From IMG/VR virus record IMGVR_UViG_3300030333_003022, positions 1-23,689 of that record: a DNA stretch of 23,689 nucleotides. One strand, 5' to 3'. The position numbers were made by a program, and so were the translations under genes. This DNA is from a virus. Numbering within the stretch: the first letter of the stretch is position 1; the number at the start of each line of letters is the position of its first letter. This document shows positions 479-23,689 of the stretch, in pieces. The notes beneath the pieces were generated by a model. It saw only the letters and a list, made by a program, of their open reading frames with translations, was not told where the DNA came from and ran no database searches.

Positions 479-1372
479 CTAAGCGGCTTTTTTCATAGTT
501 GCCTTAGCTTGTTTGTCTAGTAAATATTTGCTTGCTTTATCTGCCGCCGCCGCCGCTTTAAAGATAATGTCGTTATTATCTTTTATTGCTTGAATCCAGT
601 TGTTAAGATATTGTGCATGGTCTTTTCTAGGCGTTTTGCTTATACCTAACTGTCCAGCTAACATTGCCGCCCCTAGTTCAGCTACAAGTTCTTCAATGGC
701 ATAGGCTTGATTACCAAATTTAGATTTTCCGTAATCTCTTTCTAAATTTTGTGCTTTACCTTTTGTCCAATGTGTTAATTCATGTAATAAAGTACAAGCG
801 TATGATTCTTTACAATTAAAATATTTAATATCTGTCATTGTAATTGTGTCGCTTGATGGGTGATAATAGCATTGTCCATTGTGAGAATAATTGACTTTTG
901 CTTTTACATCACTTGCTAATTTGTCCGCTAGCGTATCAGCTTTCCACTTGTTACCTTGTATAGTTGGTGATACGTATCCGTCAACTTGATCCGCATTAAA
1001 AACAACAAAATGTTTTAATATTGGAATAGTTTTATTAAATATTTCTTCACCTTTTTGCTCAGCGGCTATTTCTTCAGGTGTTAATTTGCGATCAATAGTT
1101 TTATAAAGAACTACTAATTTTCCTTTCTCACCTTTTCTAACAGTTCCGCCGTTTTCCTTCCATTGTTTATAAGTCCCCCATTCATGAGAACTATAATTGT
1201 ATTTTGTTTGATAAATACTTAATAATAAATGATTGATACCATTGTAAGGTTTGTTAGTTGCTTTTGACGTTGGCAACGAGCCGCCCCATGATTTATTCCA
1301 ATCTGCGCCACTTGTTTTCATTGCTTCTATTACTGTTTCAGCAACTTGTTTTCTTATATCTTGTGTTAACAT
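479..1372 (-). CDS. ardC: ArdC-type antirestriction protein with HExxH metallopeptidase domain
   Basis: This 297-aa protein matches the two-domain plan of ArdC. The N-terminal part (about residues 1-130) carries the family signature KPYNGINHLLLS (41-52) and the conserved EWGTYKQW...KGEKG block (64-84). In known ArdC proteins this region binds single-stranded DNA. The C-terminal part has the zinc-peptidase motif HELTH (197-201) and a downstream EELVAE (227-232) that can supply the third metal ligand. Plasmid ArdC homologues are known to protect incoming DNA from restriction, so an early protective role is likely here. A Lys- and Ala-rich tail closes the protein. The ATG at 1372 has AAAGGA at normal spacing. 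A strong promoter-like sequence lies 40-66 bases upstream, making this the first gene of a leftward operon. Confidence 0.88.
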   Translation of the reverse strand: MLTQDIRKQVAETVIEAMKTSGADWNKSWGGSLPTSKATNKPYNGINHLLLSIYQTKYNYSSHEWGTYKQWKENGGTVRKGEKGKLVVLYKTIDRKLTPEEIAAEQKGEEIFNKTIPILKHFVVFNADQVDGYVSPTIQGNKWKADTLADKLASDVKAKVNYSHNGQCYYHPSSDTITMTDIKYFNCKESYACTLLHELTHWTKGKAQNLERDYGKSKFGNQAYAIEELVAELGAAMLAGQLGISKTPRKDHAQYLNNWIQAIKDNNDIIFKAAAAADKASKYLLDKQAKATMKKAA

Positions 1373-2750: not shown

Positions 2751-4034
2751 ATGGAAATTCGGATACCATATACGCCACGAAAAGTGCAACGTGAAATACA
2801 TGATAAAATTAAGCGTTGGAATGTGGTAGTTATGCACCGTAGAGCTGGCAAAACAGTTTGGGCGGTAAATGAAATAATAAAACAAGCTTTAACGTGTCAG
2901 TTGCCAAGACCAAGAGTAGCGTATATTGGACCAACAGCTGTTCAAGCTCGGCGTGTAGCATGGGATTATTTAAAACAATATACGGCGGGAATACCACAAG
3001 TTAAGTTTAACGAAACACAATTAACAGTAGACTTACCTAATGATTCACGAATTATGTTATTGTCAAGTGAAAATGGGGAAAGTATTAGAGGATTATATTT
3101 AGACTTTGTTGTATTAGATGAGTATCAAATGCACAGTCCAAGAGTGTTTCCAGAAATTATAAGACCAGCTTTATCTGATAGAGAAGGTGGGGCGGTATTT
3201 ACAGGAACACCTAGCGGTCATAATCATTTTTTTGATATATTAGAAACTGCTCGTAGGGAAGTTACTGAAAAAAATAACAACTGGAACTATGCTATTGTAA
3301 AAGCAAGTGAAAGCGGCATACTTCCTGAAACAGAATTAAAAGCTGCTCAAGAGATGATGGCAAAAGAGCAGTATGAACAAGAGTATGAGTGTTCGTTTTC
3401 TGCGGGTGTTATGGGGGCGTACTATGCAGAAATTATTGATGAATTAGATGAAAAGGGGCGGATAGGAGATGTGCCGTATGATCCAAATGAGAAAGTCCAC
3501 ACCAGTTGGGATATAGGGGTAACAGACAGTACCAGTATAATATTTTTCCAACACATAACAGGTGGCGGAATACATATCATTGATTATTTGGAGAATACAG
3601 GAAAAGGGTTACCTTGGTACATAAAGGAACTCGAAAAGAAAAATTATTATTACGGAGACCATATAGCTCCTTGGGATATAGAAGCCAAAGAATTTGGTAC
3701 AGGACGAAGCAGAGTAGAAACAGCGTTGAATTTAGGTATTCGTTTTCGTGTATGTCCAAAATTAACAATAGCCGATGGCATACATGGTGTAAGACAAGTT
3801 TTACCACGATGTAAATTTGATAGAGAACAATGTGCAGAGTTATTAACAGCATTGCGGCAATATAGACAAGAATGGTCAGAAAGAAATCAACGATTTTTAG
3901 ATAGACCACATCATGGCTGGGAAAGCCATGCTGCTGATGCTATGCGATATTTAGCTATAGGATTGCCAAGAGATAGTGGGTTTGAAGCACCAAGTCAAAG
4001 ACAAGCAAAGACTTCTTACAATATATTTGCATGA
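2751..4034 (+). CDS. terL: Terminase large subunit (packaging ATPase and nuclease)
   Basis: The 427-aa protein has an N-terminal ATPase with Walker A HRRAGKT (29-35), Walker B VVLDE (120-124) and the coupling motif TGTP (151-154). The C-terminal RNase H-like nuclease domain has acidic residues in WDIGVTDS (D254), APWDIEAK (D309) and SHAADAMRY (D396). This protein pumps DNA through the portal into the procapsid and cuts the concatemer. Length is normal for a short large terminase. The start has AGGCGG immediately upstream, which also encodes the end of the preceding gene. The last codons overlap the start of the acetyltransferase gene (ATGA). Confidence 0.95.
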   Translation: MEIRIPYTPRKVQREIHDKIKRWNVVVMHRRAGKTVWAVNEIIKQALTCQLPRPRVAYIGPTAVQARRVAWDYLKQYTAGIPQVKFNETQLTVDLPNDSRIMLLSSENGESIRGLYLDFVVLDEYQMHSPRVFPEIIRPALSDREGGAVFTGTPSGHNHFFDILETARREVTEKNNNWNYAIVKASESGILPETELKAAQEMMAKEQYEQEYECSFSAGVMGAYYAEIIDELDEKGRIGDVPYDPNEKVHTSWDIGVTDSTSIIFFQHITGGGIHIIDYLENTGKGLPWYIKELEKKNYYYGDHIAPWDIEAKEFGTGRSRVETALNLGIRFRVCPKLTIADGIHGVRQVLPRCKFDREQCAELLTALRQYRQEWSERNQRFLDRPHHGWESHAADAMRYLAIGLPRDSGFEAPSQRQAKTSYNIFA

Positions 4035-4471
4035 TTAGAGCATTTAAAAGTTCAGATAAAGATATTTTACTGGGTATGGCGAAACGTATGCACCAAGAAT
4101 CCGAATGGTCAGTTTTGCCATTTAGCGATGAACAAGCTGGGAATATAGCGCATAAAGTCATGGGTGGGGATTATGCGTGTTTTGTTGCAGAAGATATACA
4201 AGTTGTAGGTATGATTGTAGGTTTTGTTGCACCACATTATTTTACACAAGCAACAATAGCAGCAGATTTATTATGTTATGTTACTCCTGAAAAACGTGGG
4301 GGTACTTACGGATTTAGACTTATTAAAGCATTTGAACAATGGGCGTATGAACAAGGTGCGTCTATGGTTACATTAGGAATAACGACAGGTATTAATACAG
4401 AACGTACTGCCCGTCTTTATGAAAAGTTAGGTTACAAACAATCAGGATTAATATTAAGAAAGGAACTATAG
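4031..4471 (+). CDS. GNAT-family N-acetyltransferase
   Basis: The 146-aa product is a complete single-domain GNAT. Motif A, which binds the acetyl-CoA pyrophosphate, is visible as LCYVTPEKRGGTYGFRLIKA (81-100) with the R-G-G-x-Y-G turn. Motif B follows as ERTARLYEKLGYK (124-136). The start overlaps the large terminase stop as ATGA, so the two are translationally coupled. Phage GNAT genes next to terminase and portal genes are known, but their substrates mostly are not. Candidates are a virion protein, a host protein or a small molecule. Nothing in the sequence identifies the acceptor. Confidence 0.88.
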   Translation: MIRAFKSSDKDILLGMAKRMHQESEWSVLPFSDEQAGNIAHKVMGGDYACFVAEDIQVVGMIVGFVAPHYFTQATIAADLLCYVTPEKRGGTYGFRLIKAFEQWAYEQGASMVTLGITTGINTERTARLYEKLGYKQSGLILRKEL

Positions 4472-12265: not shown

Positions 12266-14956
12266 ATGCCAAAAATACAACGATACCAAAATTTAGTACC
12301 AATACGTAATGTTGCAGGGGGCAGTCAAAGAGCTAGAGCATTGCCATTAAGCGATATGGATTTATTGTCTAATATTGGATCTGAAATACAAAATGTAATG
12401 GGTGAAATAGAAAGGAAAAATTTAATCAATGAAGCGAAAAAAGAACGTGAAATCGAAAAACAACGTGCAGAAGCAGAACAAAAACGTAAAAAGACAATCG
12501 CACAATATAAAAAAGAAAAAGAAACTTTATTAAATTTACAATATGATTCTAAGTTAGATATAGATTTATTAGAAAAAACATTTCAATTAAATAAAAATTA
12601 TCAAAATAGTACAGATTTTTCTAATAATGTAGCAAATTATAGTAATGATTTAGATGATATTTTTTCTGAAAATATTGATGCTATAGAAACTTCTGATTTA
12701 GATAATGTAAAAAAAGCATTATTTTTAAATAAAATTAAACTGCATAAAAAAAATGCTCTTTTAAAATACGAAGTTTTTAATGACAAAGCATTAGTAGAAC
12801 ACCATAAAAATGAATTAGAATTAAATGTAGAAAATTTTGCCACATTTAGAACAACTAATAAAATTTGGAAAATGAATCAAGAACAAAGTGATCAACATTT
12901 TTTATTAGAACAAAAAGTTATTAATAGTATAAAAATGTTTGGTAAAGTTAACCATCATTCTGATGCTGAAATTAATGCGGAAATTAAAAAATTTTTATCA
13001 GACACTACTAATGAAGGGTTACAACAATTTTATACAGAAGATCAAGAAGGTTTTTTAGCAACGTATGGTATTAAAGAAAATGGAAATTGGATATTAGATG
13101 AAGGTGTTGCTCCTTTAAACAGTACCATTCCTATTACAAAATTAACAGAATGGATAAAAACAGCAGGAAAAGCAAAAGATAAAAAAGAAGCAGCAAAATT
13201 AACTAATTTACAAAATGAGATAAAAAATAATGAAGCAAATACTATAAATGTTCTTTTAAGAGGTGGGCAAGCAAAATTTGATGATGATTTAGTATTAAAT
13301 ACGTTTACAGGTGAAAATGCTGATATAGGTGAAACTATTGTTAAACAAAGAAATTTAACTCGTGATTTTGTTGAGATTATGGAAGAAACACAGAATTTTA
13401 ATCAATACACAGGTAGCGGAGAAATAATTACACAAGAAGTGTTAAATGAAATAGCTAATGATCCAAAAAGACAAAAACACTTATCTTTGTATGAAAAAAT
13501 TGCAGAAGCACAGGCAAAAATTCTTAATTCTAATAGACAAAATATTCAAAATAATGGTGCAGAATATGTTGATAGTCAAATTTTAAAAAATATAGATAAT
13601 GAGGTATGGGGAGAATTATCAGAAGAAGAAAGAATAGATAATCGTAGAGTTTGGTACGAACAACATGGAGTACCACAAGAATATAGAAAAATTTTATCTG
13701 ATGATACATTAGTTAAAACAAGTGGTAATTTATTAAAACAAATACAAGAAAATCCAGAAGATGCTTTAGAATTATATACAGCATTTAAAAATGATTTTGG
13801 ATCACATTGGAATGAAGCATTTAATTTATTTAGAGGTCATAAAGGAGGATCATTATTACCTCCTAGTTTAGCAGCATTAGATGTATATAAATCTGCACCT
13901 TCAATAGAACAAAAATTAGTAGAAGTTATTTTTGAAGAAACAAAAAATACACAAATATTAGAAGATAAATTAGACGCATCAAAAACGGATTTAGATAATG
14001 CAATAATTAACGTATTTGAAGATGTACGTTTAGCTATGAGAAAATCAGGGAGAGGTAATGAAACTGAATGGCAATCACAAAAAGAAATATATAAAAAATT
14101 AATTTTGTTACATGATAAAACAGGTACAAAATCCTTACAAAAATCAGCAGAAGAAATACGAGAATTATTATTTGGAGATAATGGTGATTTTTATATGTAT
14201 GATTATAATAATTCTGATGTAATTATTCCTCGTTATAATGAATATGGCGAATTTAGAAACCTAGATTTAATACAAAATAATTTTGAATTTTTTGAAAATT
14301 CAGAACCAAATTTTGAAAGGTTTTTAGATTTAGAAGAAAATAAAAATGTTGTTATTCCTAATGCTGTAATAGCAAGAAATCTAGGAGCAAGTTTATTTGT
14401 AAATAGTCCTATTCCTAACAATTTTAATAAACAAGAACAATATTTATTAAATGAACATAGAACGCATTTAAATAATGGAACATATTTAACAACAGCTGGT
14501 GGCGTTACAACAGTACGTACAATAGGTGTGCATTATAATGGCAAAGAATACATTGTTCCAAGTTATATACAAGGTAAAGTCTTAGATATACATACAGTTG
14601 TTGAATATTTAACTAATAATAACTTATGGGATAATTACCCAAGCTACAATAGCGTTGCAGAAGCCGAAGCTGCGAATACAAGATTGCGTACTATTATAGA
14701 ACCTGATGGTAATCATTCTGTTATTCAAGAAGAAATAAAAAATGCTAAAACTATTTTTACAGATCATTGGGGTAAATCTTATTTAGCTACACATGCTAAT
14801 GGGCAAGGGGTAGTTATGTATATGGACACAGTTGATGGGGAACAGATTATTGTCAAAGATAATGGTGAACCAGTAGTTATACCTTTTGATGATCCTATGG
14901 ATTGGTTATTACAAAATCAAAAACAAGATAATACAATGTCTGGTGTTGTTAATTAA
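12266..14956 (+). CDS. Internal virion protein, T7 gp15-like by position
   Basis: The 896-aa protein is helical, highly charged and rich in Asn, Lys and Glu, with a strong coiled coil at about residues 46-95 (repeated EKQRAEAEQKRKK pattern). By position and size it corresponds to the second internal core protein (T7 gp15, 747 aa), part of the ejection tube. Near the C-terminus (about 735-812) lies a small compact domain with GGVTTVRTIGVHYNGKEYIV, VPSYIQGKVL and SVAEAEAANTRL. This pattern resembles a conserved ~70-residue module found in many phage structural proteins (STVR(T/S)I...E.LIPT...G.V). I see no lytic enzyme motif. It ends in a TAATG overlap with the next gene. Confidence 0.72.
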   Translation: MPKIQRYQNLVPIRNVAGGSQRARALPLSDMDLLSNIGSEIQNVMGEIERKNLINEAKKEREIEKQRAEAEQKRKKTIAQYKKEKETLLNLQYDSKLDIDLLEKTFQLNKNYQNSTDFSNNVANYSNDLDDIFSENIDAIETSDLDNVKKALFLNKIKLHKKNALLKYEVFNDKALVEHHKNELELNVENFATFRTTNKIWKMNQEQSDQHFLLEQKVINSIKMFGKVNHHSDAEINAEIKKFLSDTTNEGLQQFYTEDQEGFLATYGIKENGNWILDEGVAPLNSTIPITKLTEWIKTAGKAKDKKEAAKLTNLQNEIKNNEANTINVLLRGGQAKFDDDLVLNTFTGENADIGETIVKQRNLTRDFVEIMEETQNFNQYTGSGEIITQEVLNEIANDPKRQKHLSLYEKIAEAQAKILNSNRQNIQNNGAEYVDSQILKNIDNEVWGELSEEERIDNRRVWYEQHGVPQEYRKILSDDTLVKTSGNLLKQIQENPEDALELYTAFKNDFGSHWNEAFNLFRGHKGGSLLPPSLAALDVYKSAPSIEQKLVEVIFEETKNTQILEDKLDASKTDLDNAIINVFEDVRLAMRKSGRGNETEWQSQKEIYKKLILLHDKTGTKSLQKSAEEIRELLFGDNGDFYMYDYNNSDVIIPRYNEYGEFRNLDLIQNNFEFFENSEPNFERFLDLEENKNVVIPNAVIARNLGASLFVNSPIPNNFNKQEQYLLNEHRTHLNNGTYLTTAGGVTTVRTIGVHYNGKEYIVPSYIQGKVLDIHTVVEYLTNNNLWDNYPSYNSVAEAEAANTRLRTIIEPDGNHSVIQEEIKNAKTIFTDHWGKSYLATHANGQGVVMYMDTVDGEQIIVKDNGEPVVIPFDDPMDWLLQNQKQDNTMSGVVN

Positions 14957-16386
14957 TGGGTACATTTAATTTAAAAAATAATGATGCTATGGATAATATT
15001 ACTGCTAGTAGTTATGAAGCAGATATGTCAACAGTATTAGGAGAAACATTTAGTTATATTCGTAGTTTAAATCCTGTTCCTTTAATGAGTAGAAGCTATG
15101 AAAGAGTACGTTCACGAGAAGGTAGTTTAGATGATCCTTTATCTTTAGTTGTTATTCCAGAAAAAGCTCCTGATCCTAAAGTAGATAAAAATACATTAAA
15201 TGAACAATACTCGTATTTAGGTTTGCATTTTGATGAAGATGATACAGAATTTGCGGCACAATCTTTAGCTGATGCAAAAGAAATAGAACTATCACAACAG
15301 TCTATGATGCAATCAGGGAGAGGTGGAGTTGTAGAAACAACAGCAAAATTTGGTATAGGGTTAGCAGCAACAATAGTTGATCCTTTAAATATTGCATCTA
15401 TGTTAGTGTTTCCGCCATTAGCAGGTGCAAAGTTTTTTTCAAGTGCTGCAAAAGTAGGTGTTAATTTAACTCGTTTAAAATCAGGTGCAAGATCAGGTTT
15501 TTTAGGAACAGCTGCTATAGAACCATTAGTTTATGGTTTAGCTCGACAAGAACAAAAAGATTATGATTTTACACATAGTTTATTAAATGTAGCAGCAGGA
15601 ACAGTATTAGGTGGTGGATTACATTTAGTCGGAGGTAAAGTCAAAGATGTTGTAGGCTTGTGGTCAGGCAACCAAACTATGAAAACAAAAATTACAGAAT
15701 TACAAAACATACAAAATACTAAATTAAATACTGAAGCAAAAGATGTTTTATTTCAAGTAGCTATGCGTCAATTTGTGCAAGGTAAAAATATAGATGTAGA
15801 AAAATTATTTAAATTTTTTACAAAACAACAAGAATTATCTCCACAAAAATTAGTTAACAATATGACAATGAAACAATTACAATTTGAAATTAAAGCATGG
15901 TTAAAAAATACAAAAAATGATCCTGTTTATAAAGAAGCTTTAAAAAATGTAAATGTTAAATTAAATCAGAAAAAAGCAGATTTACAAAGTTTATTACATA
16001 AGTTACATGCCATAAAACAAGGTGGTGCAGAAGAATTGATGAGTGGCAATATTACAAGTATAGAAAAAGCTTTAGCTAAAGGAGATAAAGACGCATTTGA
16101 CGCAATTAATACGGCTGCAAATACTCCAAAACAATCAGAAAAATTACAACCTGATTTAGATAAAGTAAATGAACAAGCAAATAGACCAGATGTTAATGTA
16201 GATGTTCAAGCAGCAAAAAAACATACAGATGAAATGATTGTTAATTTACAAGAAGATATAAATAGCAAATCTATAGATAAGATAGATCCTGATAATGCAA
16301 AAAGGATAAAAGAAGCAGATAATGTTATTAAAAATGCAGAAAGAGATGTAGCAGCTTTAAAAGCCGCAATGAGGTGTTTAACATAA
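14956..16386 (+). CDS. Internal/ejection protein, probable N-terminal part of a split gp16-like protein
   Basis: The 476-aa protein starts with a polar region. It then has a hydrophobic stretch at 131-163 (GIGLAATIVDPLNIASMLV...), and a second one at 208-227 (LLNVAAGTVLGGGLHLVGG). The rest is a long charged helical region. Hydrophobic segments followed by GFLGTAAIEPLVYGLARQEQ are typical of the large ejection proteins of podoviruses that cross the inner membrane. With the next gene the total is 1,302 aa, close to the 1,318 aa of T7 gp16, so the pair probably does the job of one protein. No transglycosylase motif is visible. The stop TAA shares a base with the next start. Confidence 0.7.
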   Translation: MGTFNLKNNDAMDNITASSYEADMSTVLGETFSYIRSLNPVPLMSRSYERVRSREGSLDDPLSLVVIPEKAPDPKVDKNTLNEQYSYLGLHFDEDDTEFAAQSLADAKEIELSQQSMMQSGRGGVVETTAKFGIGLAATIVDPLNIASMLVFPPLAGAKFFSSAAKVGVNLTRLKSGARSGFLGTAAIEPLVYGLARQEQKDYDFTHSLLNVAAGTVLGGGLHLVGGKVKDVVGLWSGNQTMKTKITELQNIQNTKLNTEAKDVLFQVAMRQFVQGKNIDVEKLFKFFTKQQELSPQKLVNNMTMKQLQFEIKAWLKNTKNDPVYKEALKNVNVKLNQKKADLQSLLHKLHAIKQGGAEELMSGNITSIEKALAKGDKDAFDAINTAANTPKQSEKLQPDLDKVNEQANRPDVNVDVQAAKKHTDEMIVNLQEDINSKSIDKIDPDNAKRIKEADNVIKNAERDVAALKAAMRCLT

Positions 16387-18958: not shown

Positions 18959-18970
18959 ATGGAAAATTCA

Positions 18971-21040
18971 ATGACAGTCAGTAGTACAACAACAAAAAAT
19001 ACCTATTCAGGTAACGGATCAACTACGGCTTTTGCTTATGGTTTTAAAATATTTGCAGCAACAGACTTAAAAGTAATTATACGATCTAGTGCTGGTGTTG
19101 AAAGTGTTAAATCTAATGGTACACATTATAATGTATCTAACGTAGGTAATGCCAATGGTGGTAATGTTACCTTTACATCTGGAAATACACCCGCTAGTGG
19201 TGAAACTGTAATTATAAAACGAAATTTAACAAAAACACAAGCAACTGATTATGTGGCTAATGATCCGTTTCCAGCCGAAACACATGAAGAAGCATTAGAT
19301 CGTTTAACTATGATTACACACCAGATACAAGAAGAAATGGACAGAACTATTAAAGTGTCTGAATCAGTTACAGATTTTACAACACCACAAATAACAGATA
19401 ATGCAGCAAGTAGAGCAAGTAAATTATTAGGATTTAGTTCTAATGGTGCTGCATTAGAAGCTGTTACTGGGCGTGTAAATACAGTTTCCGTAAGTAACGT
19501 ATCAGCTGGAGGTGATGCTACAGCAGCGTTTACAGCTTCTACTGGAGCTTTAGCGTTAGGTATTCCTATTGGAAATACTGGCGCACAAGGTAATACTGGG
19601 GCAACGGGGGCAAGTACAAAATGGACTACTGGCACATCTTTTCCTACATCTTCATTAAATAATGGTGATTTATTTTTATTTAATTCAGCAGTTGGATCAG
19701 GATTAACTTGGTTTGATACAGATGGATCATCTGGTTTGTCGGCTGCTGCTAAAGGTGATGTAGCACAATATCAATCTTCTGGTACAAAATGGGTTAAACA
19801 AACAAATGTTATTGGAAGTACGGGAAATACGGGAGCTGTAGGTCCAGCTGGATCGGCGGGAATTAACTTAACATGGGAAACTGCAACAGCTGATAGCAAT
19901 CAAGGAAATGGTAAAATATGGGGGAATCATTCAACATTCTCCTCAATTTCTGGGTTATATATTTCTGATGTAGATGCTAATAGTGTTAATATTGAAAGCT
20001 GGATACAAGCTTTAGATGACAGTACAAACACAGCATTACGTGGAACTATATATTTTGAAGAAGCAGGAACAAACTCTAATTTTGGTGTTTTTAATGTTAC
20101 AGGGGCAGTAGTAGATAAAACTTCATATTGGTTTATACCTGTTAGCCATGTAGTTTCTAATGTTAGTTCTTTAGCTGATGGCGATAGTGTTGGAGCTGTA
20201 TTTACGAGAACAGGTAATAAAGGAGCAGATGGCGCAGATGGTGATGGAACATTTAATAATTTTACTTTAACAGCTGATAGTGGAAGCAATCAAACTATAG
20301 CAGATGGCAACACACTAAACATTGAAGGTGGGGAAGGAATTGATACTGTCGTAGGTGCTACTGATAAAGTTACAATATCTGGTGAAGATGCTTCTACAAG
20401 TAACAAAGGTATTGCAAGTTTCCATTCTGATAATTTCTCTGTATCAAGTGGTGCTGTAACAATTAAAGATCAAGGTGTAGCTTTAGCAGAAATAGTTAAT
20501 GTAAGTGCTACCGACAAAATACTAGGTCGTAGTTCAAGTGGTGCTGGTACTATAGAAGAAATAACTTGTACTGCGGCAGGTAGAGCATTGTTAGATGATG
20601 CAGATGCTTCAGCACAAAGAACAACTCTTGGTTTAGCAATAGGCACAAATGTCCAAGCTTATAATGCTGATACAGTATTTAAAGATGAACAGAATACTTT
20701 TACAAAAGCACAGTTAGCAAGTACACAAACTGCTGATGCAACTGGTAGTGTTACGCTTGATTTTGATACATACCAAAACTTTATATTAACATTTACAGGT
20801 AATGTAACTTTAGCAGCACCTAGTACCGAAGCATCGCAAGTAGGTCAAACAGGTGTTATTATAATAAAACAAGATGGTACTGGCTCACGAACATTATCGT
20901 TACATGGTGATTACGAAACTCCTTCGGCTGGTGGCGTAGGTACAATAAGTACAGCCGCTAATGCAGTTGACATTATACCATACTGCGTTCTTGAAAATAA
21001 TAGAATCATGCTCGGATCAGTACAAATAGCGTTTGGATAA
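18971..21040 (+). CDS. Tail fibre protein with T7 gp17-like N-terminal anchor
   Basis: The first ATG (18959) emerges from the T-run of the terminator and has no ribosome-binding site. ATG 18971, with GGA upstream, gives a normal fibre N-terminus MTVSSTTTKNTYSGNGSTTA and 689 aa. Residues about 1-130 match the T7 tail-fibre attachment domain: the FAYGFKIF turn, TVIIKRNLTKTQ, and DPFPAETHEEALDRLTMI ending in DRTIKVSE. Short collagen-like Gly-X-Y stretches follow at 201-214, 282-297 and near 415-425, which may form triple-helical shaft segments. The remainder is Gly/Ser/Thr-rich and beta-like. Its C-terminal 90 residues (from about QTADATGSVTLDFDTYQNF) look like a compact fibre-tip fold. It attaches the virion to the host. 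Confidence 0.88.
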   Translation: MTVSSTTTKNTYSGNGSTTAFAYGFKIFAATDLKVIIRSSAGVESVKSNGTHYNVSNVGNANGGNVTFTSGNTPASGETVIIKRNLTKTQATDYVANDPFPAETHEEALDRLTMITHQIQEEMDRTIKVSESVTDFTTPQITDNAASRASKLLGFSSNGAALEAVTGRVNTVSVSNVSAGGDATAAFTASTGALALGIPIGNTGAQGNTGATGASTKWTTGTSFPTSSLNNGDLFLFNSAVGSGLTWFDTDGSSGLSAAAKGDVAQYQSSGTKWVKQTNVIGSTGNTGAVGPAGSAGINLTWETATADSNQGNGKIWGNHSTFSSISGLYISDVDANSVNIESWIQALDDSTNTALRGTIYFEEAGTNSNFGVFNVTGAVVDKTSYWFIPVSHVVSNVSSLADGDSVGAVFTRTGNKGADGADGDGTFNNFTLTADSGSNQTIADGNTLNIEGGEGIDTVVGATDKVTISGEDASTSNKGIASFHSDNFSVSSGAVTIKDQGVALAEIVNVSATDKILGRSSSGAGTIEEITCTAAGRALLDDADASAQRTTLGLAIGTNVQAYNADTVFKDEQNTFTKAQLASTQTADATGSVTLDFDTYQNFILTFTGNVTLAAPSTEASQVGQTGVIIIKQDGTGSRTLSLHGDYETPSAGGVGTISTAANAVDIIPYCVLENNRIMLGSVQIAFG

Positions 21041-21043
21041 AAT

Positions 21044-23605
21044 ATGTTTACTAATGAATTATGGAACAAACCTCCTGCTGGTGCAACTGGTTTTTATGAG
21101 TATCAAATAGCTCACAGTCTTAGGTTTCCAACTGGAGCAAATGGTTATTTGTCAAATACCAGTTTATCTGCTGGCAACAGAAGAACTTGGACTTATAGTA
21201 TATGGACTAAAAAGAATTGGATAAACAACACAACTAATGGAGAACGAAGTTGGTTGTCTGGTTATAGTACAGGTGGTGCTACTTATGTTTTTTGGGGATT
21301 TCAAGGACACTCTAGTAATACTGCTCACATGGACGACTTTAAATTTGAAGAAACAAGTGGTTCAACACAAAGTGCTTTTTCTATAGATGGTACTCCAGAA
21401 AGAAAATTTCGTGATCCTAGTGCGTGGTATCATGTTGTGCTTGCTATAGACACAACACAATCAACAGCAACAAATAGACAAAAACTTTGGATTAATGGAG
21501 AAGCTCAAACATTGGCAGTTTCTACTCAAATGGCACAAGATTATGAATTTAGTTTTGTAAATAATGGTACTGCAAAAATTTCACATTTAGCATGGTCAAA
21601 TGGTTTAGAAGATACACAACTTGCAGATTATATTTTTCTTGATGGAGTAGCTGGAACTGCTGATACTTTCGGTGAATTTCATAACGGAGTTTGGCGACCT
21701 GTAGAATATTCAGGGAGCTATGGTGATGAAGGGTATCATTTAAAATTTGAAGATAGTTCTAATTTAGGGAATGATTCATCTGGAAATAATAATGATTTTT
21801 CAGTTACTAATCTTTCAGCACACGATCAAACATCAGATAGTCCCACTAATAATTTTTGTACTATAAATCCAGTATTTAGAGGAACAGAAACATCTGATGC
21901 AAAATATGGAACTTTATCAGAAGGTAATTTAAAATTATCTTATACAAGCAATTCTGATGCTTATCAATGTTGTACTCATAAAGTACCTGCATCTGGTAAA
22001 TGGTATTGGGAATATGCTATTATTGCAGGTGGAGGTAGTACAAATTTTAATCCAGCATTTGGCATATTTGATCCTAATGGTGAAGCATACGCATCTGGAG
22101 ATGGTGGCAATAAAGGATTTGTAGATTCTATTGTTTATAATAATGCTGATAATAATGTTTATAAAGCAAGATCATCTACTAAAGCTTATGATGGTTCAAG
22201 AGGTTCTGATGGAGATGTTATGGGAGTTGCTCTTGATATGGATAATGGTGCTATTTATTTTAGTAAAAATGGTACATGGTATTCTTCTGGTGATCCTACT
22301 TCTGGTTCTAGTAGAACTAATGCAGGTGCAACATGGACACCAGCAAGTGAATTTACAGCAGGTGCAGTTCCTTTAGCTTGTTGTGGAGGTGGAAGTACAC
22401 CACAAATAGTAGCCAATTTTGGACAAGAAGGCACATTTGGTGGCACAGAAACAGCAGGTGGTAATAGTGATACTAATGGTTATGGTAATTTTTATAGTAC
22501 TGTACCATCTGGTTATTCAGCAATATGTACTGGAGCATTGACAGTAGCAGAGGAAATCGATCCTGCTGAAACTGATGACGATTATCCACAGAAATTGTTT
22601 AATGCAATAGTATATTCTGGAGATGGAGGAGGAAGTCAAACAACTGGATTTCAACCAGACCTTGTGTGGGTGAAAAGACGAAATGGCGATCAAGGTAATG
22701 GTTTGTGGGATAGTTCAAGAGGAACTACTAAAGTATTAAATTCAGATAGTACAAGTTCTGAAGGCACATCTTCTGGTTTAACATCTTTTAATTCTACTGG
22801 TTATACTATGGGTAATTATTATAATCAAAGTGGTAACACTTATGTTTCATGGTCGTGGAGAGCAAATGGTGGAACTACAAGTTCAGAAACAGCAGGAAGT
22901 ATTAATACAACTGTTCAAGTAAATCAAAATGCAGGATTTTCTATAGTACAATATGTGGGTGATGGAGGTTCTAGTAATTGCACAATGGTCCATGGATTAG
23001 GAGCTAAACCTGCTATGGTATTTTTAAAAGATAGAGATAGCAATGGTAATAATAATTCATGGCAAGCATGGCATCATAAATTAGATACAAATGGATATTT
23101 TTATTTAAATTCTAATGATCAACAATATACTTCAACAAATGGAACTGTAAATGTTTCAGCTAATACAACAAATTTAATTGGTTGGCAAAGAACTAGCACA
23201 ACTGGTGGTTCACAAACTATAACTGAAAGTGGAGATAATTATGTAATGTATATATGGGCTGAAATTGAAGGATTTTCTAAATTTGGAAGCTATGTAGGAA
23301 ATGGTGATACAGATGGAACATTTGTTTATACTGGATTTAGACCTGCATTAGTAACTATAAAAAGAACTGATAGTTCTGGCTCATGGCATGTCTATGATGA
23401 TGCAAGAGATACTTATAATCCAGCAGATACATATTTATTATGGGATACTACTGGTTCTGATGATACTGCATCAAGTAATGCAATATCCCTTTTAAGTAAT
23501 GGTTTTAAACTTAGAAATACTGCAGCAGGACTTAATGGAAGTGGTAATGATTATGTATATGCAGCATGGGCACATAACTCATTTAAATACGCAACAGCTC
23601 GATGA
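21044..23605 (+). CDS. Large tail protein with LamG-like, SPRY-like and triple C-terminal repeats (probable receptor binding)
   Basis: The 853-aa protein is built from carbohydrate-binding-like beta domains. Residues about 25-255 resemble a concanavalin/LamG fold (RRTWTYSIWTKK, then WYHVVLAID and RQKLWING). Residues about 318-462 look like a SPRY domain (GKWYWEY, then DVMGVALDMDNGAIYFSKNG, then IVANFG). The C-terminus holds three tandem ~111-residue repeats at 519-631, 632-743 and 744-853. Each has a V-x-Y-x-G-D/N-G start, a G-x-x-P-x-(L/M)-V-x-(I/V/L)-K core, and a YV..W near its end. This repeat resembles the DUF7483 family of marine phage tail proteins (recalled). It lies directly after the fibre gene and has GGA upstream of the ATG. 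Glycan or receptor recognition is the likely role. Confidence 0.78.
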   Translation: MFTNELWNKPPAGATGFYEYQIAHSLRFPTGANGYLSNTSLSAGNRRTWTYSIWTKKNWINNTTNGERSWLSGYSTGGATYVFWGFQGHSSNTAHMDDFKFEETSGSTQSAFSIDGTPERKFRDPSAWYHVVLAIDTTQSTATNRQKLWINGEAQTLAVSTQMAQDYEFSFVNNGTAKISHLAWSNGLEDTQLADYIFLDGVAGTADTFGEFHNGVWRPVEYSGSYGDEGYHLKFEDSSNLGNDSSGNNNDFSVTNLSAHDQTSDSPTNNFCTINPVFRGTETSDAKYGTLSEGNLKLSYTSNSDAYQCCTHKVPASGKWYWEYAIIAGGGSTNFNPAFGIFDPNGEAYASGDGGNKGFVDSIVYNNADNNVYKARSSTKAYDGSRGSDGDVMGVALDMDNGAIYFSKNGTWYSSGDPTSGSSRTNAGATWTPASEFTAGAVPLACCGGGSTPQIVANFGQEGTFGGTETAGGNSDTNGYGNFYSTVPSGYSAICTGALTVAEEIDPAETDDDYPQKLFNAIVYSGDGGGSQTTGFQPDLVWVKRRNGDQGNGLWDSSRGTTKVLNSDSTSSEGTSSGLTSFNSTGYTMGNYYNQSGNTYVSWSWRANGGTTSSETAGSINTTVQVNQNAGFSIVQYVGDGGSSNCTMVHGLGAKPAMVFLKDRDSNGNNNSWQAWHHKLDTNGYFYLNSNDQQYTSTNGTVNVSANTTNLIGWQRTSTTGGSQTITESGDNYVMYIWAEIEGFSKFGSYVGNGDTDGTFVYTGFRPALVTIKRTDSSGSWHVYDDARDTYNPADTYLLWDTTGSDDTASSNAISLLSNGFKLRNTAAGLNGSGNDYVYAAWAHNSFKYATAR

Positions 23606-23624
23606 TTAATAAAGGAGAAAAACA

Positions 23625-23689
23625 ATGTGGGCGTTAGTAAAAAGTAATAAAATAGAAGAAATAATATCTAGTCCAAAAGACATGATAAT
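23625..23689 (+). CDS. Partial small protein following the tail genes (N-terminus only)
   Basis: The ATG at 23625 has an excellent AAAGGAG site (23611-23617) seven bases upstream. The frame stays open to the window edge and reads MWALVKSNKIEEIISSPKDM. This N-terminus (MWALV..NK(I/V).E.I..PK) resembles short proteins encoded after tail fibre genes in many marine phages, perhaps tail-associated or fibre-assembly factors (recalled, not searched). It lies 19 bases after the large tail protein and is probably in the same transcript. Confidence 0.72.
   Translation, partial: MWALVKSNKIEEIISSPKDMI

Follow-up and report, generated by a model that had tools for sequence, protein, structure and literature searches.

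A putative receptor-binding protein next to a marine podovirus tail fibre appears to be diversified by exchange of lectin-like blocks

The virus record IMGVR_UViG_3300030333_003022 from IMG/VR is a partial genome of 23,689 bases, the whole of which is referred to below as the window. According to Pfam and PHROG, it carries terminase, portal, capsid, tail and T7 gp14-like internal virion genes. An open reading frame (ORF) of 853 amino acids occupies positions 21,044–23,605 of the plus strand, exactly where an earlier note, made from the letters alone, had placed a modular lectin-like tail protein. It begins 3 bases after the tail-fibre gene (18,959–21,040), and its parts follow in the order anchor peptide, LamG, SPRY and three repeats (R1, R2 and R3), an arrangement that we regard as being of the receptor-binding type. 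The best match of the window portal is that of the SAR11 phage HTVC034P (52.5% identity), the HTVC010P-type group as a whole standing at about 52%. The N-terminus of the fibre is 67% identical to that of HTVC034P, and other pieces of the fibre are 51% identical to HTVC010P. The homologous portal and fibre N-terminus point to a phage of HTVC010P type, and the best reading of these sequences is a podovirus of the HTVC010P-like, SAR11-phage kind, with a host predicted by likeness. A DNA-level sister of the window was absent from a phage collection of 50,697 records, which returned a single 57-base match, and a scan with core genes likewise found no sister phage. The question of whether the same core can carry a different protein was therefore examined on other pairs and on isolates.

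The composition proposed in the earlier note, a LamG-like domain, a SPRY domain and three repeats, was confirmed. The N-terminal peptide, of MFTNELWNKP type, covers residues 1–20 (21,044–21,103), with a predicted local distance difference test score (pLDDT) below 50 for residues 1–14. The next module spans residues ~22–268 (21,107–21,847). Since the window protein had no match at E ≤ 1 to any laminin G family of Pfam, we call this module LamG-like rather than a LamG member. Its model adopts the LG/pentraxin jelly-roll fold (pentraxin match at Z ~17), as judged from CRP (1gnh_A; Z 17.2, root-mean-square deviation (rmsd) 2.6, 191 aligned residues), 8hgh_A (Z 18.7) and the LG domains of PAPP-A. 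Compared with known pentraxins and LG domains (CRP, SAP, PAPP-A), the structural similarity amounts to Z ~16–19 at a sequence identity of about 9–14%. Conserved linker 1 (residues ~240–275; 21,761–21,868) leads into the SPRY module (residues ~270–499; 21,851–22,540), and partly conserved linker 2 (residues ~457–515; 22,412–22,588) leads out of it. Residues 319–412 match Pfam SPRY (PF00622) with 27.4 bits, above the gathering cut-off of 26.3, and the module has the SPRY β-sandwich fold (Ash2L, 4x8n_A: Z 19.4, rmsd 2.3, 172 aligned residues; SPRY7, 7ccb_A: Z 19.2). Against solved SPRY/B30.2 structures (Ash2L, RanBP9/10, DDX1) Z is 18–19 and Foldseek E-values reach 7e-8. SPRY/B30.2 domains are eukaryotic intracellular peptide binders; the SPRY module of the window, unlike those proteins, sits in a phage tail-type protein. 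AlphaFold2 modeled the whole protein (93 sequences) with mean pLDDT 84.4 and a predicted template modelling score (pTM) of 0.85, and the repeat part alone (121 sequences) with pLDDT 91.6 and pTM 0.91, in both cases as a monomer and with the repeats folded as a whole triad. Searches with the window protein revealed no relative among PDB sequences and no match in NCBIfam.

The three repeats, R1 (residues 516–628, 113 amino acids; 22,589–22,927), R2 (residues 629–744, 116 amino acids; 22,928–23,275) and R3 (residues 745–853, 109 amino acids, ending in NSFKYATAR; 23,276–23,602), are already covered by Pfam DUF7483, which was not known to the earlier note. This family (PF24299, 330 positions) matches residues 515–844 with 315.5 bits against a cut-off of 27, over profile positions 2–328. 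Pfam treats it as one domain, whereas in the window protein it resolves into three homologous repeats. Local alignment against 2000 shuffles gave Z of 7.3 (R1/R2), 10.1 (R1/R3) and 9.3 (R2/R3), no shuffle attaining the score of any repeat pair, whereas LamG or SPRY compared with a repeat by the same method gave −0.6 to 2.5. Profile–profile alignment with hhalign, the comparison by which the earlier note proposed to check the repeats, assigned the three pairs probabilities of 98.2, 99.0 and 97.1%, versus at most 7.2% for the other seven module pairs. On these sequence comparisons R1, R2 and R3 are homologous. Plain BLASTP comparison of the window protein with itself did not detect the repeats, so "strongly diverged", as the earlier note had it, is correct. 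The same note took the divergence as a sign of diversifying host recognition. A protein of host-recognition type is indeed diversified, by block exchange as described below, but the divergence between copies is not recent, because each of the three repeats is described by a profile of its own and they mostly follow one another as R1-R2-R3. Structurally, the DUF7483 model, searched whole with its three repeats, gave no convincing match in PDB (best Foldseek E 3e-3; best VIA Z 4.7). Apicomplexan APC-beta domains and single-chain C1q heads are among the top Foldseek hits and may, we presume, hint at a three-fold arrangement of DUF7483.

Different blocks of the window protein have their closest relatives in different loci. 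Along LamG, SPRY, R1, R2 and R3, identity to the window is 97, 34, 31, 28 and 54% for locus L002 (the LamG value over residues 25–240), 32, 77, 30, 36 and 48% for L003, and 33, 34, 90, 93 and 68% for L116; R2 is also 85% identical to that of L011. The pattern recurs at the DNA level, where alignments extend over 20,767–21,846 with L002 (85.5%), 21,763–22,596 with L003 (80.4%) and 22,408–22,887 with L006 (82.3%). Neighboring alignments overlap within the linkers, those to L002 and L003 at 21,763–21,846. Beyond this gene, what the window has in common with the records of L002, L003 and L116 does not exceed a terminase at about 43%, present in two of the three, and the C-terminus of the fibre at 67%, likewise in two of the three. 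The portal family of the window, with the window itself as positive control, was found in none of eight related records, which may be fragments.

Trees of 25 proteins per block (LG+G4 model, long branches flagged) and approximately unbiased (AU) tests likewise differ between blocks. The window groups with L002 in LamG (support 100/100), a grouping rejected in SPRY (p 3e-38), R2 (8e-69) and R3 (1e-5). The SPRY tree recovers the window together with L003 (89/87.6, not starred), whereas the other four blocks reject this pair. As for L116, the R2 tree recovers its pairing with the window (87/63), LamG and SPRY reject it, and R1 does not (0.361).

The window is not a special case. Of the 7381 pairs that 122 five-block proteins form, 142 have a block in common at 70% identity or more, and in 131 of these another block is at or below 45%. 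Just five pairs are alike throughout, and these are near-identical proteins: four pairs with 100% in all blocks, plus L007/L008. Other cut-offs give discordant shares of 357/529 (60/40), 80/89 (80/45), 83/89 (80/50) and 24/29 (90/50), and leaving the window out gives 121/132. Exactly one block at or above 80% with all others at or below 55% occurs in 30 pairs, the single block being R1 in 17, SPRY in 5, LamG in 4, R3 in 4 and R2 in none; under this strict cut-off single exchange is seen for R1 and R3 of DUF7483 and not for R2. The flanks of the 131 discordant pairs show long similarity in 27, some in 28 and little in 76, although at least 2 of the 27 (L015, L151) pair the two genes of a single locus, so that one gene lies within the flank of the other, and should not count. 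Block histories are thus incongruent across unrelated phages, as in mosaic receptor-binding proteins.

Two pairs of loci show what an exchange looks like. For L006 and L118, identity is 96.0% over a 2499-bp stretch that runs to about residue 31; across LamG–SPRY the two have a single 196-bp piece (79%) in common (LamG 39%, SPRY 36%), and they regain 93.4% from linker 2 through R1–R3 and beyond. They differ by a clean replacement of LamG and SPRY. L070 and L060 are 96% identical upstream and over the first ~60 residues, followed by LamG at 58%, SPRY at 30%, R1 at 94%, R2 at 100% and R3 at 55%. Incongruent block histories and clean replacement together show block exchange, in one direction or the other. 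Could the same picture arise without recombination, from fast-evolving block cores between constrained linkers? Linkers and domain edges are indeed more conserved than many cores. However, single blocks of the window lie close to different contigs (97, 77 and 90–93%) with the rest at ~30%, L006/L118 lose and then recover ~95% DNA identity sharply, and AU tests reject a single history. We consider this explanation already contradicted and extremely improbable. Diversity-generating retroelements and site-specific inversion are known routes of phage adhesin diversification. Here, though, the variation resembles replacement of whole blocks, and no reverse transcriptase or recombinase was found in the 17 ORFs scanned with Pfam, an absence that carries little weight in a partial genome and with template repeats not sought. 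We give a retroelement or inversion hardly any credence.

The positions of the exchanges point to the linkers. In 152 DNA alignments, 176 of 249 internal ends fall into four linker zones that together account for 31% of the protein, the zones being widened by 12 residues on each side, the alignment pairs being non-independent and the ends overshooting into conserved edges. Ends cluster at linker 2 and are absent from the 25-residue bins of the SPRY core (301–425) and the LamG core (76–150). Exact 20-mers shared with 121 relatives peak at residues 501–525 and 601–625 (mean 4.9 and 4.6 relatives). The alignment ends suggest that homologous recombination takes place at the linkers, and by the 20-mer pattern it is better supported at linker 2 and at R1/R2 than at linker 1.

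Our preferred interpretation, to which we assign a probability of roughly 70%, is that of a fibre-borne putative receptor-binding protein diversified by block exchange. According to this scenario, the short N-terminal peptide would dock on the C-terminal domain of the fibre encoded just upstream. Beyond this anchor, each of the five lectin-like blocks (one LamG/pentraxin-like, one SPRY and three DUF7483 repeats) would represent a slot that takes one of a range of alleles present in many marine phages. Conserved linkers and edges would supply the DNA homology through which recombination could swap one block or several neighboring ones while fold and frame are kept. The blocks would bind ligands at the cell surface, such that swaps would alter host recognition. 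Ligand binding and the effect of swaps are suggested by the type of domains, the position of the gene and the published hypervariability of the locus, and the protein is presumably located in the virion.

A number of observations weigh against this interpretation. R3 of the window has no close relative (best 68%), and its R3 tree mildly rejects the grouping with L116 (p 0.0345). The R1 tree does not reject window plus L002 (p 0.144), nor are the window and L116 sisters in it, and the pairs for AU tests, run with LG+G4, were picked after identities had been seen. The collection was fetched using the window protein and its blocks as queries, which favors pairs sharing a block. When other long ORFs of the same loci were cut into fifths as a control, 220 of 490 pairs were discordant and 127 alike throughout; mosaicism is thus wider than this gene and weaker elsewhere, and the contrast is one of degree. 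As many as 45 of the 249 alignment ends lie at residues 176–225, inside the LamG fold and outside the linker zones, and exact 20-mers are rare (at most 0.4 relatives) at residues 251–300, in and after linker 1. Shared blocks are scarce among isolates: at the level of 70% or more, a block is common to a single one of the 55 pairs formed by 11 five-block isolates and to none of 1331 isolate–environment pairs. A common pool of alleles is consequently supported within sets but not across all marine phages. Three isolates for which HTCC1062 is the recorded host (HTVC024P, Greip and Skadi-4) differ in every block (43–58%), which speaks against a simple rule linking block to host strain. Finally, the locus is 100% identical in nine listed Skadi records (Skadi-4 included), so that the variation is not visible among isolates of one species.

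The scarcity among isolates also bears on whether the mosaics are chimeras of metagenome assembly. Most relatives are assembled IMG/VR contigs, and conserved linkers could cause misjoined assemblies. Yet the one isolate pair that shares a block, HTVC011P and Greip, is itself discordant (LamG 60, SPRY 88, R1 38, R2 52, R3 60%), and discordance is spread over 55 of the 122 proteins. Assembly chimeras as the source of the mosaics thus appear very unlikely. Isolates also exhibit contrasts between core and blocks: HTVC024P and Greip have portals 92% identical and blocks at 49–56%, and Skadi-4 relative to these two has a portal at 80% and blocks at 43–58%. Skadi-4 (L289, 1935–4312) and HTVC031P (MH598800.1, 33584–35957) are 76.6% identical in DNA over 83% of the locus, their genomes measuring 34.9 kb (Skadi) and 41.0 kb (the pelagiphage HTVC031P).

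How widespread is the protein? By tblastn it was found in 70 of 50,697 phage records, in 29 of which a single place accounts for at least 80% of it, all below 60% identity; proteins of this kind are thus common in marine phages. The hosts of the carriers include Pelagibacter, Roseobacter, Methylophilales, Synechococcus and Prochlorococcus, as well as Vibrio with another domain order. The earlier note had called a SPRY domain in a phage tail protein unusual, a view that the occurrence of the same domains in isolates on all these hosts does not bear out. In the fetched loci the most frequent architectures were LamG-SPRY-R1-R2-R3 (128 ORFs), R1-R2-R3 (57), LamG-SPRY (49) and SPRY-R1-R2-R3 (37), counts that include ORFs truncated at the end of a locus. 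The three repeats move together in fixed order, and their number is nearly, not strictly, constant: exactly one triad was present in 11 of 14 isolate loci examined, and extra or partial sets occurred in Vibrio phage GR7B, phage C72C1 and Roseobacter phage CRP-603. The comparison of repeat number between relatives, suggested in the earlier note, thus indicates that copy-number change is not the main route of diversification; block exchange is. Two copies of this type of protein reside in one locus in L015, L050, L051 and L151, possibly a local reservoir for exchange.

The five blocks form one gene in MEP301, CRP-811, S-SRM01 and SS120-1, two genes (LamG-SPRY and DUF7483) in HTVC011P, Greip, HTVC024P, Skadi-4, HTVC103P and HTVC121P, and three in HTVC202P. 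It follows that linkers double as gene-split points, linker 2 in many relatives. Of 27 splits read by hand, 23 lie between SPRY and DUF7483, 3 between LamG and SPRY and 1 inside R1, and in 26 both ORFs share a frame with one or two stops between them. Stop-codon readthrough was considered and dropped in favor of the simpler gene split with a coupled start. The loci came from single-frame tblastn matches, which favor in-frame pairs; in most splits an in-frame ATG lies no more than a few codons away; and in HTVC011P, Greip, HTVC024P and Skadi-4 the second gene is in another frame with a 1-base overlap. L035 has an in-frame TAG in R1 (1381–1383) with no ATG nearby, which may be an error, a broken gene or recoding. 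A DUF7483 protein of Greip (L287, 3251–4321) is annotated as "SprT-like protease", a label that is probably wrong since the protein carries R1-R2-R3.

As for the proposed docking, the upstream gene (18,959–21,040, plus strand) encodes a 693-residue tail fibre, with an N-terminal part of phage-fibre type at residues 5–~170 (PHROG tail protein phrog_13893 at 5–169), a weak collagen-like stretch (Pfam Collagen below cut-off) and a C-terminal piece at residues ~579–692 (about 20,693–21,034). The latter is common to two of the three nearest block relatives of the window, being 67% identical in G001 and G003. Among 70 of 164 rows listed for the comparison of anchors and fibres, at least 10 starting with MFN..LW.KP, some near-duplicates, follow fibre ends 54–68% identical to that of the window, and at least 12 starting with MG[VI]FQN follow ends at 36–43%. 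The link between peptide and fibre is weakened by the MSGP.. group (53–69%) and by other N-termini (L125, L135, L033, L111; 61–68%). The tendency of the peptide type to accompany the type of upstream fibre C-terminus is thus only suggestive. In L006/L118 the first ~30 residues of the protein stay with the upstream gene. Docking of residues 1–20 on the C-terminus of the upstream fibre is accordingly put forward as putative. The upstream fibre gene of L006 (3000–4570) and its relatives has many off-diagonal similar stretches, indicating an internal repeat array.

The locus corresponds to a region described in pelagiphages. The hypervariable region of Skadi-1 was reported at 13,646–15,713, and low recruitment was reported for the same region in 5 of 11 other HTVC010P-like phages, namely those with enough reads (PMC10504331). 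This is the same LamG-SPRY and DUF7483 locus as in the window, except that Skadi has two separate genes and the window one fused gene. In Skadi-1 the genes occupy 13,353–14,408 and 14,408–15,730, with R3 at 13,386–13,694, R2 at 13,698–14,015, R1 at 14,058–14,381, SPRY at 14,414–15,046 and LamG at 15,110–15,727. The hypervariable region therefore spans LamG, SPRY, R1 and R2 but reaches no more than ~49 bp into R3. R3, just inside which it stops, is also the least variable block in the 122-protein set (median pairwise identity 50%, versus 36–42% for the other blocks). Block swapping may be the reason why this spot of the genome is so variable. A broader proposal stands, in our estimation, at even odds: the HTVC010P-type hypervariable island would be a combinatorial adhesin locus with five exchangeable slots of lectin type, R3 the least variable, which receive alleles from unrelated marine phages via conserved sequence between slots, so that new combinations, and not point mutations or retroelements, would be the source of recognition diversity.

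Alternatively, the blocks may be structural decoration, associated with fibre or capsid, that varies through weak constraint and does not bind receptors. PHROG labels relatives "virion structural protein" (phrog_19943), isolates of one recorded host carry different blocks, and receptor binding is here inferred from domain type, position and hypervariability. Against decoration, the gene of the protein directly follows that of the annotated tail fibre in HTVC011P, Greip, Skadi-4 and HTVC121P, although other genes stand between the two in HTVC024P and MEP301, and the locus is hypervariable in natural populations (PMC10504331). Moreover, near-identical blocks in otherwise different phages argue for use rather than drift. 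Decoration thus seems unlikely, and receptor binding remains the preferred reading.

Mosaic receptor-binding proteins as such are already known. A survey described shuffling of tail-fibre domains across distant phages (PMC10684548), as seen in the window; its main text does not contain the terms lectin or SPRY. The host-recognition module of Alteromonas phages consists of a tail fibre and a neighboring gene common to unrelated marine phages (PMC10579305), but there the whole module is shared, together with a chaperone and with other domains, SPRY and LamG not being named in the text. The Skadi report gives low read coverage and a lectin domain; five blocks and a mechanism are not named and SPRY is absent from its main text (PMC10504331). 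Within the open-licence PMC literature searched, we found neither the five-slot organization, DUF7483 as a triad or the match to the pelagiphage hypervariable region, nor any paper on DUF7483 or on SPRY together with pelagiphage.

Downstream of the 853-residue protein, the window end cuts off a gene starting at 23,625 (23,625–23,689, plus strand; AGGAG at 23,613–23,617, ATG at 23,625). Its counterparts in relatives (L002:7483–8175, L007:7523–8194) are open frames of 217–230 amino acids. One of three relatives matches the tail fibre assembly family phrog_4912, though below threshold (E 0.079), and matches were found in 3 phage records only; going by sequence and position, a fibre chaperone is possible. 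Elsewhere in the window, an ArdC-type anti-restriction protein (ArdcN and zincin-like metallopeptidase) is encoded on the opposite strand at the start (479–1372, minus strand), and a GNAT acetyltransferase gene (4031–4471, plus strand) lies between terminase and portal. An 896-residue ORF in the internal virion position (12,266–14,956, plus strand) has no match in PHROG or the phage collection, and guanine-cytosine content drops to 27–28% around it.

To our knowledge, no agreed explanation exists for which SAR11 strain a given phage infects. Phages of SAR11 occur throughout the sea and in large numbers (PMC10504331). If the five-slot adhesin is real, it would provide a concrete mechanism for the hypervariable region reported as low read coverage (PMC10504331). 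Host range would then be a readable code, in which block alleles could be catalogued from metagenomes and their binding tested one at a time.

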